Source: a virus. Taken from it: DNA of 34,595 bases. Positions 3,001 through 27,537 of this stretch are shown piece after piece (position 1 is the stretch's first letter; every line of letters begins with the position of its first letter). The notes beneath the pieces were generated by a model. That model saw only the letters and a program-made list of their open reading frames with translations. It searched no databases and was not told the DNA's origin. The DNA lies in IMG/VR virus record IMGVR_UViG_3300045959_000108, positions 1 to 34,595 of that record, one strand, 5' to 3'. Both the position numbers and the translations under genes were made by a program.

Positions 3001-6000
3001 GGACCTATATGAGCGAGTGGCTCGTAGAGCGATTCCCGTGCTTCACGCCAACTGGGCCAAGTTGCTCAAGAAGTTCCCTGGTCTGGCATCCAGCATCAAG
3101 GAAAATGAAACGCTCCTCATCTTGTCTGGGATGCTGGCTCCAGATGGCAAGTCGTTTTTGCGCGAAGCGTCCAAGACCGCTTCCAACCCGATCGTCTATG
3201 GCGCAGGTGTGGGAGGTGTAGCTAACCAGCTGAAGAGCGATATGAAGCTCAACCTCGTAACTGAGTGGTTGAAGCTCGATTACATGGTAAGCAAGGATCC
3301 CACTAACGCTAAACTTCGCCTTGAGCGGGACAAGTACGCACATTGGCTTGGCGTGGATGAGTCGACGTGGGACTACACGGCTAAGGCCGCCGCTGAAGCT
3401 TTGCTCGAAGCCTATCGCAGTGAGAAGCCAGTTGTAACAGCTGTTACCGGATTGATGGTGAAAATCACCAATCTCGGTTATGCGGTGAAGAAAGCCCAGT
3501 GGGACAGCCAGCACAACAAGGCATTAACTGCTGCTGAGCGCAACAAGGACCTTACCGAGAAGCAGGCCAAGTGGGCGCTGTCTCGAGCTGAATACCAGCG
3601 CATTAATGGCAACACGCTGTCGATGACCTTCAGCACAGCTGCCAGCGATGTGGGCGTCAACCTGGATGACGTTGAGAACCAGCCAGATGCTTTCCGAGTA
3701 GGAGGTCTTGGTACATCGTTCCAGGCATCCCTTGACCTGCCTCAGCCGTCAGTTCCTGGTGTACGAATCCTTGCATTGCTCACACAGGCAGCTGGTGACG
3801 GTGCCATGGGTAACGAGTTCCTGCAGCAGTTCCGCGCAGTGACCGACGTCTATGACGGTATCGAGTTCAAGGTGAATGAGTTCATGCAGGGTGGACAGGG
3901 GCTCAATGCCGCCGTCTGGAAAACTCTTCAGCATGACGTGCTTCAGGATTTCGTGACCGTCAGTGAGCGGATCCTCAATGACATCGCCAACATTGGGGAG
4001 ACGGAACAGAACCTCATCCTGGAAGCGTATAACAGCACCATCCCGAATGAGAAACACCACCTCACGAGCTGGAAACAGTTCCTTGGTGAAGTCGGCACAG
4101 TCGACCGCAAGATTCGTGAAGCCCATACGGCTCAGAAGGAAGGTCTGGCTAAACTGAAGAGCCAGCCCAATACCGTGCTGCAGATGGGTGGTGGCGAAGG
4201 CTACACCACAGATGTGGTCACCCGAGATAACGTGCGTCAGCCTGACTTCCGTCTGAACTGGAATAAGGCTGTTGGTGCCGTATTCGAACTCAACAACGGT
4301 AAGTTGGACAGAACCAACATCATTGCGATGATGGATGGCGTCAAGTGGAAGAACCCCATACAGAAGCTGGTGTGGAACCGCCTGCGTAAGTTACTCCCGG
4401 CTGGTGTAACGATCAGCTTGGCGAAGAACCAGGCTGAGTGGGAAGCCTTTGGCCTGACTAATAGGCCATATGGCACGGTGAACGGTGTTGCTCGTGGTGA
4501 CCAGATCTATATGGCAACCGCGTCACCCGCCATCATGTTGCACGAGCTCTTCCATAGTGTATTCAGCACTACGTTGAACCAATACTTCGCTAACATCAAT
4601 CAAGTGCCGGTAGAGCTCCGTGGTCCGATCAACGACCTGGTACAGCTATTGAATCGGTTTAAGAGCCTCTCAGGCATTGAAGTAGAGCGAGTGCAGGCAA
4701 TCATCCGCCGTCATGAGTTCGTCGGTGACACTGCTCGAGCCATCGATGAGCTGATGGCTTACAGTCTTACTGAGACAACGCTACTCAACGAGCTTAGCCC
4801 CGGCTTCGCTTCTCGCGTGATCAATCGGATCAAGCAGGTGTTGTGGGGGTTGATTGGCAAAGATGTGCCCAGCAGCTACCTGGATGAGGTGCTAACTGTC
4901 TTTGAGAATCTGTCAGGAGATCTGGAAACGGATGTAGTTGAAACAACCGAGATCCGAGATCACGTCAACCCGCTCGAGAACTTGACGGCCTCGGCATTCG
5001 CTGCCCTTGCCCAGAAGATTGCTCGTGGTCAGCGGTACAAGACTCCCCCGGCCAACACCAGCCACCTGACTGAAGTGATGCAGAAGTACAGCCTGACTGC
5101 CGATCAGCAGATGCTATACAACCGCGTCTACACCTTACTGCGAATGGAAACTCGCCCTGCGGAGCTGGAGCAGTTTGTCTCGACGACTCTTTCCTCTCAC
5201 CCGGATGCGAATCTGTTCAATGGGGCCAAGGATGTAGTGGCCTCTGTCATGGCATTGGCTGCAGTGGAACCCAGCTTCAAGGCACAGTTGGAAAGCATTG
5301 CTTTACAGCAGCAGGGTGTACCAACGATTGCCAACCAGCTCATTGAAAAGGCTCTTGGGACTTCATCTTTGACGAGTGTCGATGAGATGTTGTCTCGCAC
5401 GTTCAGTGAGATGATCCAAGACAGTGAATACAAGATGTCATTGCTGGGTACCGTGTTGAAACGCGGTGACCGCCTTGGTAACACCTGGCTCGAGAAAATT
5501 GGTGAGAAGTCTTACCAGGCTGCACAAGGAGCTCCCCGTGGCGTATCCGATGTTCTTAATGGCATCTACGCTCTGACCACTGAGACTGGTTCGACTGCTT
5601 TTGGACGAACCCTGATCACGGCCGTCAATGAATTTACTGATCAGCGATGGCTGCAGGATCTGATGGCCGCATTGGTTGGATCGCAAGACGATACCAACAC
5701 TGTGTACCGTCAAGTAAACACAATGAAGAGCAACATTGCTCAAACCCGTTCAATGTTCACCACCACGCTTCCGCTACAGCTGCGTAATCTCTTTCCAGAG
5801 AGCTTTGACGGATGGAACAACTTGTTCAAGCACTTCGGTCGGCTGGACGTGTCCGTACTTGGCGAGAGTGCAGCTGAGATGTACAGCGATGATGCCGCAC
5901 GACGTCGCATGATCACTGCACTGAAGTCAAAGGTGAGCAACTGGCGTGATGCCGAAAATCTTGGCCACTACATGGCTCACGGTAAAGTGGTTCCTGGAAG

Positions 6001-23823: not shown

Positions 23824-24204
23824 TTAGCTCCAGATCACGAAGGTAGACGTTCCGGCAGTACCGGTGACATCTTCGACCTGGAAACCACGCTTGGTCAGAG
23901 CCGCACGCACATCTTCGGGGAGTTCGCCTTCGAGCTGCAGCTGGCTTGCGCCCTGACGTGCCTTCATGATGATGCCCACAAGAACGGCCCACAGGCTGTT
24001 GGCCTGTACACCCTGCGGCTGGGTGAGACCAGCGGCATCCTTGGCAGTCAGGCTGACAGTGCCTGAGACAAAGGGCAGTGCATGAAACAGTTCGAAAGTC
24101 TGCATCGCCTGCTGCTGAGTGCGCTCATCAAGAGTGCGAATGTCGGCAGCGATGTCACGGACATCTTCATTGATGCCAAGCCAGGTACGAAAAATGTTCT
24201 TCAT
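23824..24204 (-). CDS. Hypothetical phage protein (126 aa)
   Basis: ATG overlaps the stop of the upstream gene (ATGA). The N-terminus is a helical, acidic/charged segment (INEDVRDIAADIRTLDERTQQQ); the C-terminal half has an ELPEDVRAALTKRGFQVEDV stretch followed by a beta strand ending TSTFVIWS. I do not recognise the family. Confidence 0.7.
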   Translation of the reverse strand: MKNIFRTWLGINEDVRDIAADIRTLDERTQQQAMQTFELFHALPFVSGTVSLTAKDAAGLTQPQGVQANSLWAVLVGIIMKARQGASQLQLEGELPEDVRAALTKRGFQVEDVTGTAGTSTFVIWS

Positions 24205-24980
24205 AAGGTGATACCTTGGTTGATGATGGTTTCAACCAGTCCTGTATCCGGATTATGAGTATCCGGGATAGGCTGGTTACCTAGAACAGAAAAGTCGAAA
24301 TATGGAAAGCGCACGTTGTCACGTAAATAGCGCGTTCCAACTTCCCCATACATTCGAAACTCGGCTGGAGCTCGGGTCAATTTGTAGTAACCGAGTTCGT
24401 TCAGCTTTGTCACAAGCAGGGGATCACCAAACAAGCGGATATACCACTTGTCATCAGTGTTAACGATGGTCCTGGCTACAATGGAATTTCCGCCTGGAGC
24501 ATACAAGACAGCAAGAGCCAGCTTGTTCTGGGGATGACAGTAGCATCGCACCAGAATGGAATTAGTCATGCAGCTCTCAACGCCACCGCTAGTATCTTGA
24601 TAGGCGGCAATCCAGTCTTCTGGTCGAGTGAGAAACTCAACTCGATAAGCTGTGAGTTCGTGCTGCAGCTGTTGAATGATGATTGGGTCGATGAACCTCT
24701 GGAACAAGTTCAAGAACTTATCGACCGGCAAACTCCTATTTGGAGTGTCAAACAACCTGAAGTTGTGAAGATCCGGATAATAGCGAATGTTTGTGCGTTT
24801 GTTCGGATCAAATTCAGCTAGACACGCGACTCGAATAGGCTCAGGAATGAGCTCCGGTGCACGATCAAAGCAACGGTGATACTTGGCAAGCAAGTCACCA
24901 TCTGGATCTTCCTTGGCTAGAAGTCGCATGACGACTTCTTTGCTAGGAATCTTGGTGTGCTTCTTCTTGAATTTCTTCAT
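24201..24980 (-). CDS. Hypothetical protein, paralogue of 25920-26744 product (259 aa)
   Basis: The C-terminal part reads SGGVESCMTNS, then NKLALAVLYAP, ARTIVNTDDKWYIRLFG and LNELGYYKL. The same SCM...LAL.Y...R.IVN...K.Y.R.Y...LN..GY sequence occurs in the protein encoded by 25920-26744. I recall this Cys-containing domain from other phage proteins of unknown role. The basic N-terminus (KKFKKKHTK) differs between the two. The gene is coupled to the peptidase gene upstream by ATGA. Confidence 0.72.
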   Translation of the reverse strand: MKKFKKKHTKIPSKEVVMRLLAKEDPDGDLLAKYHRCFDRAPELIPEPIRVACLAEFDPNKRTNIRYYPDLHNFRLFDTPNRSLPVDKFLNLFQRFIDPIIIQQLQHELTAYRVEFLTRPEDWIAAYQDTSGGVESCMTNSILVRCYCHPQNKLALAVLYAPGGNSIVARTIVNTDDKWYIRLFGDPLLVTKLNELGYYKLTRAPAEFRMYGEVGTRYLRDNVRFPYFDFSVLGNQPIPDTHNPDTGLVETIINQGITL

Positions 24981-25933
24981 TCGAATCTCTTGAAGATCTT
25001 CTGTGAGAGTTCCAGTGCCTCGTCTCGGAGATCACGAGGCAATACGCTGCAGTAATCAAAGAGCAGATCTGCCAGCTCGAGTGCACCTATTTCAGGTGCG
25101 TCATCGAATAGTTGACCAGGAACACCAAAATCCATGTAACCGCGTGAAACAGGTGATACAACAACTGGATCAGGAGTCGGCGGAGTGTGGTCTAGTTGGC
25201 CCCAGTTTGCTGTCAGCAAGCTATCAAGCAGAGCTTCGAGATAACTCTTGTTAAGTGTTTCTTTCTTACTGTGCTCGTTTTCGTAACCGACAGAGATGTT
25301 TGTGCAATTGGGTACAATGTCGAAGAACTCGGCTGTGTCTGTGTAGATGCCTGTTGGATCAAGTTTGTGCCCCAGCTTCAGAATGTCGGCTAAGCTCATG
25401 CCAAACTCATCACTGCAGCCACGACCCCGGCCCTGGTGGGTAATGATTGATTCTGTGCCACGTCGATCAAATGCGATGGCACAATCAATACCTTCAAATA
25501 GGTCTTTGCGGTACTTGGCACAGAAACTTGAGCCAATGCCACCACGCTCTTCGCCCCTGAAGAAGGCATAGACACCTGGAATTCGTCTGGCAATCATGTG
25601 GAACATGAGCCAGTTACCTGCAGCATCATCCGCCCCAAGGGGCTGGTTGTCTTGTTTGCAGTAGAGATTGCCGTTAAGAACAACATCTTGATAGACGTGT
25701 TCCGAGTTCATGTGAACGGTGTCGACATGACTCGTGAACATGATGTTGCTTTTGCCTACATACACGAAGAAAGCCATTACTTCATCAGTGTCAGTAGCAA
25801 TGATTCGAGGCTGGAAAGGCTGAACATGCTCCTTCACATATTGCTTCTCACCAATAGAGTTGTGAGCCCTACGGTAAGAAAGAAGTTTATGAAGGTGAGG
25901 ACCTTTGAGACGATGTTTCTTAGTACTCATCAT
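24977..25933 (-). CDS. Zn-dependent aminopeptidase/deacylase (M20/M28/M42-like)
   Basis: The 318-aa protein has the co-catalytic zinc set of MH-clan peptidases: SHVDTVH (H69, D71), the bridging Asp in GADDAAGN (102/103), catalytic Glu in GEERGGIGS (128/129), then FDRRGTESI and YTDTAEF further on. ATG at 25933 is preferred (GAGG 6 nt upstream); a second ATG follows directly. Enzymes of this group remove N-terminal residues or acyl groups from peptides or small molecules. The substrate is not predictable. It lies between two paralogous unknown genes and overlaps both. Confidence 0.82.
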   Translation of the reverse strand: MMSTKKHRLKGPHLHKLLSYRRAHNSIGEKQYVKEHVQPFQPRIIATDTDEVMAFFVYVGKSNIMFTSHVDTVHMNSEHVYQDVVLNGNLYCKQDNQPLGADDAAGNWLMFHMIARRIPGVYAFFRGEERGGIGSSFCAKYRKDLFEGIDCAIAFDRRGTESIITHQGRGRGCSDEFGMSLADILKLGHKLDPTGIYTDTAEFFDIVPNCTNISVGYENEHSKKETLNKSYLEALLDSLLTANWGQLDHTPPTPDPVVVSPVSRGYMDFGVPGQLFDDAPEIGALELADLLFDYCSVLPRDLRDEALELSQKIFKRFE

Positions 25934-26744
25934 CGTGATCCTCGTCATGGCAGCAGCCACAATAGATGTCCCCATTGCTGTAGTTCATGCTTTCTCCGTC
26001 AGAGCCAATGCGTCCAACCATGGAGTTTGTCTGCAACACCAAGTCGCAAACTCCATCTAGGTAAGGACCTACCAAAACATCTCGGCCGCAGTCATCACAT
26101 TCACGCCAGTCCAATGCAATAGGTTCATCAAAAAGTGTCTCATTGTCTTGGCGATAGCCAGCCTTATTCAAAGCAGCGACAAAGTAGTTGATGTCCAAAC
26201 CGTTGGAATAAATTCGGAGATATGTCTTCCTAGCTTGGTTGACGATGACGCGATGAGTAATCTTGTCGTTGGTCTCGATGTAGCAGAGTGCCAGGTTGCT
26301 CCCTTCCACAGCGTACTGTCGTACATACTGGCTACCAGCCATGCAGCTGCCTGGACCGCATTCATAGACGTTGTACCAGCCATCTGGATCATCATTGTTA
26401 ATGAACTTCAATGTAGGTAGCGTCTGCCCAAGAACTTCAACAGCCCATGCTGTTCTGATTTCCTGCGGAGCATGAGTCAAGGTTCTCTGCAGAAACATTT
26501 CTGGAGAAGTGCGGGTTATCCGATTAGCAACCATGTTCGGGACGTTCTGGTAGTACGCCACTTTACCCGGCACATTGGCACTGAGATGAATCAAGCAATT
26601 GTTGAATAAGGGGAGGAGGTCGGAAGACCAGGGAAATCGCTGCTTACAAACCTTGGCTCGTGCGCGATAAATTTCACGCTCTGAAGGCTGTAGATGAAGC
26701 TCCGGATTGAAATCTGCAATGAACGCTTCCGGCGTGAGAAACAT
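25920..26744 (-). CDS. Hypothetical protein with SCM domain and zinc-like C-terminus (274 aa)
   Basis: GGAG sits 6 nt before ATG. Residues about 130-210 match the product of 24201-24980 (CGPGSCMAGS, LALCYIE, HRVIVNQARKTYLRIYS, LNKAGY). It additionally has a C-terminal Cys-rich part, ECDDCGRD and YCGCCHDEDHDDEY, which could bind zinc. It is the first gene after the tRNA. Function unknown. Confidence 0.72.
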   Translation of the reverse strand: MFLTPEAFIADFNPELHLQPSEREIYRARAKVCKQRFPWSSDLLPLFNNCLIHLSANVPGKVAYYQNVPNMVANRITRTSPEMFLQRTLTHAPQEIRTAWAVEVLGQTLPTLKFINNDDPDGWYNVYECGPGSCMAGSQYVRQYAVEGSNLALCYIETNDKITHRVIVNQARKTYLRIYSNGLDINYFVAALNKAGYRQDNETLFDEPIALDWRECDDCGRDVLVGPYLDGVCDLVLQTNSMVGRIGSDGESMNYSNGDIYCGCCHDEDHDDEY

Positions 26745-26753
26745 TGGGGACTC

Positions 26754-26771
26754 CGAGAGATGGTGCTCTCG
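26754..26771 (-). promoter_or_regulatory. Alternative hairpin between tRNA 3' end and downstream RBS
   Basis: CGAGAG (3' acceptor strand of the tRNA) can pair with CTCTCG just after the CCA, with a 6-nt loop. The downstream arm directly precedes the GGAG ribosome site of the 274-aa gene. The trailer repeats the tRNA 5' acceptor strand, so two mutually exclusive folds exist. Structure seen in sequence, function inferred. Confidence 0.45.
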
Positions 26772-26873
26772 TGTAGATTCGAACTACAGTCTCTGCTCGG
26801 AAAGAGCAGTGTCCTCGGGAAAGCGGCGGGCTGGTTACTACACGCCGCTCCCTAGCCTCTAGACGACGAGAGC
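26761..26873 (-). tRNA. tRNA-Glu(UUC) with expanded D-loop
   Basis: Acceptor GCTCTCG/CGAGAGC pairs perfectly, discriminator A, encoded CCA at 26761-26763. The T-arm is TGTAG-TTCGAAT-CTACA. The anticodon arm is CTGCT-CTTTCCG-AGCAG with anticodon UUC (26800-26802). The D-arm start TCGTCTAGAGGC and end GAGGACA match bacterial tRNA-Glu closely. The variable loop is 4 nt. The D-loop, however, is 48 nt rather than about 11; the extra 37 nt form their own hairpin (GGG AGCGGCG / CGCCGCT TT CCC, 14-nt loop). Position 37 is C rather than the usual purine. It may be a functional tRNA needing processing, a tolerated insertion, or a degenerate copy. Confidence 0.82.
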
Positions 26874-26901
26874 AGTTGAAAGTGATCATCAACAGTCAGA
26901 A

Positions 26902-27309
26902 TCAGCCGTTTGCTTCTTCTGCTGTTTTGTTATCGTGACATGGACCGCAGAGAACCTGCAGTTGATCCACTGAAACAAGCAAGCGGCTCCAAGCTTCTTC
27001 ATGAGACAGTCCGCTAATGGAGCCCCAGGGCACAATGTGATCCACGAACACTTCCTTACCCATGAACCACTTGCAACAGTGGGCACATTGGTACTCGAAC
27101 TTCTGGCGTGGATTAGAGCCCTTGTAGGGCCTCTTGGCTGCCGCCAGGGCTGCATATCGGGGTGGCCACTTCTGCCACGCCTTGCGCATCGCAGAGCGGA
27201 TGAAGGCCCGGTAACGTGCCATGCTCCAGAGGGGATGACCGGGGCAAGGATCCGTTACCGGGCGCTTCTTTCGGGGAGTCTTGGTTTTCGTTGTTCGGCA
27301 TTTAGGCAT
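26902..27309 (-). CDS. HNH endonuclease
   Basis: The 135-aa protein has a basic N-terminus (PKCRTTKTKTPRKKRP), then YQCAHCCKWF, the catalytic VDHIVP, and VLCGPCHDNKTAEE. The two CxxC pairs hold the structural zinc, and D-H, N(H)-K residues form the beta-beta-alpha metal core. Phage proteins of this form act as homing or packaging-associated nicking enzymes. It ends 28 nt before the odd tRNA. It overlaps no neighbour. Confidence 0.9.
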   Translation of the reverse strand: MPKCRTTKTKTPRKKRPVTDPCPGHPLWSMARYRAFIRSAMRKAWQKWPPRYAALAAAKRPYKGSNPRQKFEYQCAHCCKWFMGKEVFVDHIVPWGSISGLSHEEAWSRLLVSVDQLQVLCGPCHDNKTAEEANG

Positions 27310-27318
27310 TCGTGAAGC

Positions 27319-27537
27319 CTAATCGGGAGAACTTGGGAAGTCCAGTCCCATCCGATCAGCGTAAAACCGTTTCAGATCGTTGTCGCTGAAGTCGGCTACA
27401 TCCAACTTGAGTTCAGCCAACAAGATGGGATGAAGCCAGTTGTGTACATCCTCGTAGTCTCCATCTAGAAGCATCTGCTGAATGGAATTGACTTGATCTG
27501 TAGCTAACTCAACGAGCATGTCGTGACGGGTGCTCAT
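27319..27537 (-). CDS. Small acidic protein (72 aa)
   Basis: Start is an ATGA overlap with the dUTPase stop. The chain is acidic and helical throughout (LVELATDQVNSIQQMLLDGD, VADFSDNDLKRFYADRMG). A DNDLKRFY-type helix appears in several small phage proteins of unknown function. No catalytic motif. Confidence 0.7.
   Translation of the reverse strand: MSTRHDMLVELATDQVNSIQQMLLDGDYEDVHNWLHPILLAELKLDVADFSDNDLKRFYADRMGLDFPSSPD

Follow-up and report, generated by a model that had tools for sequence, protein, structure and literature searches.

The stretch of viral DNA analyzed here (34,595 nt; hereafter the window) encodes a 113-nt tRNA-Glu(UUC) gene on its minus strand (26761..26873) that is almost certainly a genuine tRNA with a hairpin inserted in its D-loop. 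Comparison with related phages shows an extra arm that holds its structure while both its letters and its length turn over freely. The anatomy of the arm is firmly established and apparently has no published precedent: full-text searches, which reach few subscription journals, turned up no account of a hairpin in the D-loop of a phage tRNA.

A complete cloverleaf can be traced, in which the acceptor stem (5' strand GCUCUCG, 26867..26873, pairing at 7/7 positions with CGAGAGC, 26765..26771), the D-stem (5' strand GUCU, 26861..26864; 3' strand GGAC, 26811..26814), the anticodon stem and the T-stem are all fully paired, with 7, 4, 5 and 5 bp respectively. The anticodon arm (26793..26809, 5/5 pairs) presents the loop CUUUCCG, with the anticodon UUC at 26802..26800 and a C at position 37 (26799), and is followed by the variable region AGAC (26789..26792), which has A46 and no residue 47, the T-arm UGUAG-UUCGAAU-CUACA (26772..26788), the discriminator base A and an encoded 3' CCA (26763..26761). 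U8, A14, G18-G19 and the T-loop UUCGAAU are likewise in place. The D-loop is expanded to 46 nt (26815..26860), as against 9 nt in the relative L004, and its 37-nt insert lies 3' of G18-G19, between 20b and A21. The insert forms the hairpin GGGA-GCGGCG / CGCCGC-UU-UCCC (26817..26852, minus strand), that is, GGGA/UCCC, a UU bulge and then GCGGCG/CGCCGC, closed by a 14-nt loop; it is preceded by AGAGGCUA and followed by GA, a register common to all four insert-bearing genes described below. The corner between 20b and A21 is a variable part of the D-loop that points away from the contact between G18-G19 and the T-loop, so the hairpin can probably be carried without harm to the core or to the determinants read by GluRS; judged from the sequence, its position leaves that contact, the D-stem and those determinants untouched. 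The minimum free energy fold of the whole 113 nt is the cloverleaf plus the extra hairpin (-48.0 kcal/mol; z = -3.5; 0/200 dinucleotide shuffles as good).

Neither ARAGORN (also with its intron options) nor Rfam calls the gene, because of the length of the insert, whereas the flanks alone, joined in a script, are called by ARAGORN as a 76-nt tRNA-Glu(ttc). A first-pass annotation of this DNA had the coordinates of the gene exactly, without giving the strand, and its statement that every part of a tRNA-Glu can be placed is borne out by the paired stems and encoded CCA. The insert helix that it had drawn (AGCGGCG/CGCCGCT plus GGG/CCC) is the one described above in an equivalent register, and its excess of 37 nt stands (113 versus 76 nt in L004), but the D-loop that it had given as 48 nt measures 46.

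The window is a 34.6-kb virus record. Its genes for a virion RNA polymerase, a DNA polymerase of the PolA type, the N4-type primase and a Dda-like helicase mark it as part of an N4-like phage (Schitoviridae). The closest primases of cultured phages are only ~50% identical (Achromobacter phage Axy04, Schitoviridae), and the window and its relatives therefore form an uncultured genus-like group of their own. The relatives L002, L003, L004 and L005 were found by DNA-polymerase searches, and L017 (the same contig as L056) was added by a tRNA-pattern scan; a direct DNA search of phages with the tRNA of the window gave no match. In the window, L002, L003, L004 and L017 the tRNA-Glu gene lies between the same two genes. 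Directly upstream is an HNH endonuclease gene (26902..27309, minus strand; PHROG 1985, E 1.7e-21), a neighbor conserved in all five phages and 64-76% identical in the relatives. In the DNA fetched around HNH homologues from outside the genus, ARAGORN called no tRNA and a relaxed scanner detected none with a long D-loop. Directly downstream is a 274-aa gene (25920..26744, minus strand), whose conservation as a neighbor is seen in tblastn synteny; it matched no Pfam family over the cut-off, and no relatives were recovered by protein patterns in viral contigs or by tblastn in cultured phages. This gene, whose function is unassigned, and a neighboring one on the minus strand (24201-24980), likewise without a Pfam family over the cut-off, look like diverged paralogues, with cross-hits of 27-38% identity in the relatives. 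The tRNA-Glu of L004 (3451-3526) is ordinary in length, with 76 nt and a 9-nt D-loop, and has two U-U mismatches in its anticodon stem. The first-pass annotation had named a normal tRNA with unrelated sequence in related phages as an observation that would refute the element; L004 alone has one, and L002, L003 and L017 carry a hairpin there.

The D-loops of the four genes with an insert share one layout, namely 8 unpaired nucleotides (AGAGGCUA or close to it), the hairpin, GA or AA and the D-stem, and the extra length is 37 nt in the window, 20 in L002, 33 in L003 and 26 in L017. The helices have 7 to 11 pairs, each hairpin is interrupted once by a bulged U or UU, and all four inserts fold better than their mononucleotide shuffles (p = 0.0145 for the window, 0.0065 for L002, 0.0005 for L003 and 0.0005 for L017). 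Pairwise alignment against shuffles found little or no similarity among the insert sequences: over 12 comparisons in all, L002 and L017 share an 8-nt word (local p 0.002), the window and L017 align weakly over their length (global p 0.03), and the remaining pairs align no better than shuffles. Since hairpins at the same spot in the relatives have different letters, it seems to be the shape of the insert rather than its sequence that matters. The primase tree pairs L004 with L005 and sets both the window and the group (L002, (L003, L017)) outside that pair, a topology that would fit either a single origin of the insert with later replacement of its sequence or repeated insertion. Several other sources for the extra sequence were rejected. 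Its best match elsewhere in the window is 10 nt, which is at chance level for a copy; a coding insert is ruled out by length differences that are not multiples of three and by stop codons in most frames; and, against a role as transcription terminator, no terminator-like or promoter-like site was found within 26600-27400.

The cloverleaf outside the insert, as far as the five tRNA-Glu genes indicate, is under selection. Two-sided changes are seen in 15/21 stem pairs, including 5/7 positions of the acceptor stem and 5/5 of the anticodon stem, with the D-stem invariant across all five genes; broken pairs number 0 in the four insert-bearing tRNAs and 3 in L004. The stems vary by paired changes, which makes random decay, already argued against in the first-pass annotation, unlikely. 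The determinants of GluRS recognition comprise U11-A24, U13-G22 with A46, the absence of residue 47, G1-C72 and the anticodon (PMC9976931), U11 and U13 lying in the 5' strand of the D-stem of the window. Kept in the group are U11-A24, U13-G22, A46, the lack of residue 47, G1-C72 and U34U35C36 (C34 in L003). A37, a strong determinant for the E. coli GluRS, is replaced by C37 in the window, L002, L017 and L004 and is present in L003. The first-pass annotation was right to call C37 unusual, given that 37/40 other phage tRNA-Glu(UUC) have A37. It is not tied to the insert, because the insert-free L004 has it too, and its occurrence in four of the five members means that charging may be weak. The L003 gene has the anticodon CUC. 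Within the group GAG use peaks in its phage and GAA use in L004. This match between anticodon and codon use is a weak sign of decoding.

To place the element in a wider context we used a tRNA-Glu pattern that allows 14-43 nt between G18-G19 and the 3' strand of the D-stem. No comparable long-D-loop tRNA-Glu gene was found in 84,980 bacterial and archaeal genomes, in which the pattern matched once; that single match is an incomplete tandem copy adjoining a normal gene. With a normal gap, the core of the pattern finds tRNA-Glu in 78/386 genomes of one phylum, and it is therefore a fair probe. A scan for tRNAs with a TAGCTCA-type D-arm, by comparison, recovered long-D-loop tRNAs in several unrelated phage contigs and, in 386 bacterial genomes, one match, apparently an incomplete tandem copy as well. 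This class has 16 distinct, well-formed phage tRNAs with a long D-loop, 10 of which are tRNA-Lys(UUU), as against 11/138 ordinary tRNAs of the same class (p ~1e-6); counted by nucleotide-level lineage the enrichment is 7/13 (p ~1e-4), and it concerns a single D-arm class in other phages, whose lineages may be distantly related. tRNA-Lys(UUU) is a classic target of anticodon nucleases. Several of the long-D-loop tRNAs of this class have GNRA tetraloops on helices of differing sequence. In still other phages D-loop expansions fall on tRNA-Lys, tRNA-Arg(UCG) and tRNA-Glu. Within the phage of L017 itself, tRNA-Pro, tRNA-Tyr and tRNA-Ile have ordinary D-loops, and the arm is found on tRNA-Glu only.

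In other phages, the tRNA-Lys(UUU) genes of L083, L088, L091, L100, L114, L116, L129, L131, L134 and L157 have D-loops of 21-27 nt, most with a small hairpin and several with a GNRA tetraloop (e.g. GGC-GAAA-GCC). Further expansions (L027, L029, L052, L012, L016, L020, L054, L023, L028, L034, L039 and L049) include tRNA-Arg(UCG) with a hairpin of the ACTCACC/GGTGGGT type and tRNA-Glu(UUC)-like genes with ~22-nt D-loops. In four related large phages (L009, L021, L040 and L045) the D-loop of tRNA-Lys(UUU) measures 41-42 nt and, in contrast to the hairpins of free sequence, is conserved in its letters (TCTTAAAAGAGATACAGAAA...GTGAACGTAG); it could be a different kind of element.

The insert is probably retained in the mature RNA, and we tentatively read the product as a decoding tRNA-Glu that permanently carries a fifth arm at its elbow as an anti-recognition device. 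The hairpin would grow from the D-loop at the elbow and block the docking of a host tRNA-targeting defense, be it an anticodon nuclease or another tRNA nuclease, or alternatively of a modifier that acts on the elbow or D-loop. With docking blocked, the phage tRNA-Glu would survive and sustain translation while the tRNA-Glu of the host is attacked. We infer retention, charging, decoding and shielding alike, and the shielding role itself is put forward with reserve. It is nevertheless the best fit among the three ideas offered in the first-pass annotation (an intron-like element, an arm that hides the tRNA and a non-decoding tRNA), given an arm whose structure is kept while its sequence turns over, the bias toward Lys and the available precedents. 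Thus, AriB of the PARIS system is modelled as touching U16-U17 of the D-loop, and U16C impairs cleavage of tRNA-Lys (PMC12409363); the tRNA-Tyr of phage T5 escapes retron-Eco7 because of its variable loop (PMC13096335); and anticodon-loop changes in phage tRNAs generally are predicted to evade nucleases (van den Berg et al. 2023, PMC10264068). The isotype is itself a target of a known tRNA-targeting defense, the preferred substrates of Cas13a being tRNA-Lys, Glu, Gln and Thr, with tRNA-Glu(UUC) included (PMC11042736). An intact RtcB RNA ligase gene in the phage of L017 (L297:2445-3954; contig IMGVR_UViG_3300048583_000198, a 72-kb relative), situated directly before tRNA-Pro, tRNA-Tyr and tRNA-Ile, is consistent with tRNA damage during infection. 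The group has only four insert-bearing members, and at least one relative, L004, can do without the arm. More speculatively, phages might have gained such an arm time and again on the tRNAs that are attacked most (Lys-UUU, Glu-UUC and perhaps Arg). It would be a general counter-defense, a steric shield that keeps its shape while an arms race lets its sequence drift or be exchanged, and one that standard tRNA finders overlook.

The main rival to a protective arm, which we regard as rather unlikely, is a neutral, tolerated insertion. On this account the corner between 20a-20b and A21 accepts any self-paired segment, and inserts are gained and lost through slippage or illegitimate recombination, with only the non-pairing ones purged, the arm having no function of its own. 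It would explain why the inserts are wholly different in sequence and length and yet paired, it accommodates the insert-free L004, and established tRNA structure places the site outside the tertiary contacts. The same tolerance should, however, apply to bacterial tRNA-Glu, from which, by the pattern used, the arm is absent in 84,980 species, and it is essentially absent in 386 genomes for the TAGCTCA-type D-arm class; nor does neutrality predict the isotype enrichment in phages, the restriction to Glu among the four L017 tRNAs, or stems that are better in the insert-bearing tRNAs than in L004. Protection of a homing site, with the HNH gene cutting insert-free tRNA genes, was also considered; the same gene adjoins the insert-free tRNA of L004, which is mildly against it. 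It is improbable that the hairpin is an intron-like element, excised with the halves rejoined by a host or phage RtcB to give a 76-nt tRNA-Glu. The flanks alone are a perfect tRNA-Glu in all four members, and RtcB is intact in L017 and missing from 68.7 kb of the insert-free L004, but the window fragment is without RtcB too, including the place between g499 and the virion RNA polymerase gene where L017 has it. A PF01974 splicing endonuclease was found in 0/5 phage records, archaeal controls being positive, although a host enzyme might act in its place; a search for T4-type RNA ligases matched neither the phages nor the controls and so carries no weight either way. The insert junctions, judged by eye, have 8 unpaired nucleotides before the hairpin and 2 after it; no 3-4-3 motif was seen, and no archaeal bulge-helix-bulge is apparent. 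The members have no junction or insert sequence in common, and an insert at this position need not be removed for the tRNA to decode. At 20-37 nt the inserts are also too short for a self-splicing intron, the catalytic core of group I and II introns being 200 nt or more. The intron-like idea of the first-pass annotation is thus weak, the RtcB of one relative notwithstanding.

The remaining alternatives are less probable still. Bacterial 23S rRNA has intervening sequences that are cut while the pieces stay together, and a hairpin insert of conserved structure and free sequence is analogous to these; a two-piece tRNA, its hairpin opened by an RNase and its halves held by base pairing, is nonetheless a remote prospect, with bulged helices of 7 to 11 pairs being short for RNase III. 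The third of the earlier ideas, a non-decoding tRNA-like RNA serving as a decoy, sponge or regulator, is very unlikely. The unusual C37 and the extra arm would suit it, but A37 aside, the Glu identity set is preserved, as are the CCA end and, through compensatory change, every stem, and we disfavor it for that reason; the codon use of the L003 (CUC anticodon, highest GAG) and L004 (highest GAA) phages is a weak argument in the same direction. An assembly error, chance fold or decaying gene is hardly credible. Standard tRNA finders do miss the gene, but four independent contigs have the same architecture with strong stem covariation, and the relaxed cloverleaf scanner gave 0 matches in three shuffles of 0.69 Mb; hairpins in the same register in the relatives together with paired stem changes make artefact or random decay unlikely.

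Set against known systems, the tRNA with its proposed fifth arm resembles the nuclease-evading phage tRNAs (T5 tRNA-Lys versus PARIS, T5 tRNA-Tyr versus retron-Eco7), which combine a target isotype with an altered body or loop; these differ in having substitutions in the anticodon or variable loop, and the papers found describe no whole extra D-loop arm. Ordinary bacterial tRNA-Glu(UUC) shares the cloverleaf, the block formed by the D-stem, A46 and the absent residue 47, the UUC anticodon and the CCA, whereas the window has 113 rather than 76 nt, a 46-nt D-loop with a hairpin and C37 in place of A37. The long variable arm of class II tRNAs is likewise an added hairpin of variable sequence that leaves the core, but it departs from the 44-48 region, whereas the arm of the window departs from the D-loop and the variable region has 4 nt. 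Archaeal tRNA introns at non-canonical D-loop positions likewise lengthen this loop in the gene, but need a bulge-helix-bulge and a splicing endonuclease, and here no such gene was found and the motif is not apparent. The size of the D-arm also deviates in tRNA-Sec and in mitochondrial tRNAs, according to passages of a review (PMC7609411); tRNA-Sec differs in its longer D-stem and shorter loop, and those passages mention neither phages nor a hairpin inserted in the D-loop.

What phages gain from carrying tRNAs is an old debate, the leading answers being codon compensation and the replacement of nuclease-damaged tRNAs. An arm of conserved structure and free sequence at a single fixed site, present in phages and not found in bacterial tRNA-Glu, would give the second answer a readable signature, one that if true could be put to a direct test with PARIS, Cas13a, retrons or PrrC. 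Surveys of phage tRNA content would then also prove biased against the most unusual ones, since ARAGORN and Rfam would be shown to overlook some of them. In the relative L005 the DNA polymerase gene (L005:2218-5412) matches in two pieces ~830 bp apart (3664-4491), and the gap is possibly an intron or a homing-endonuclease insertion.
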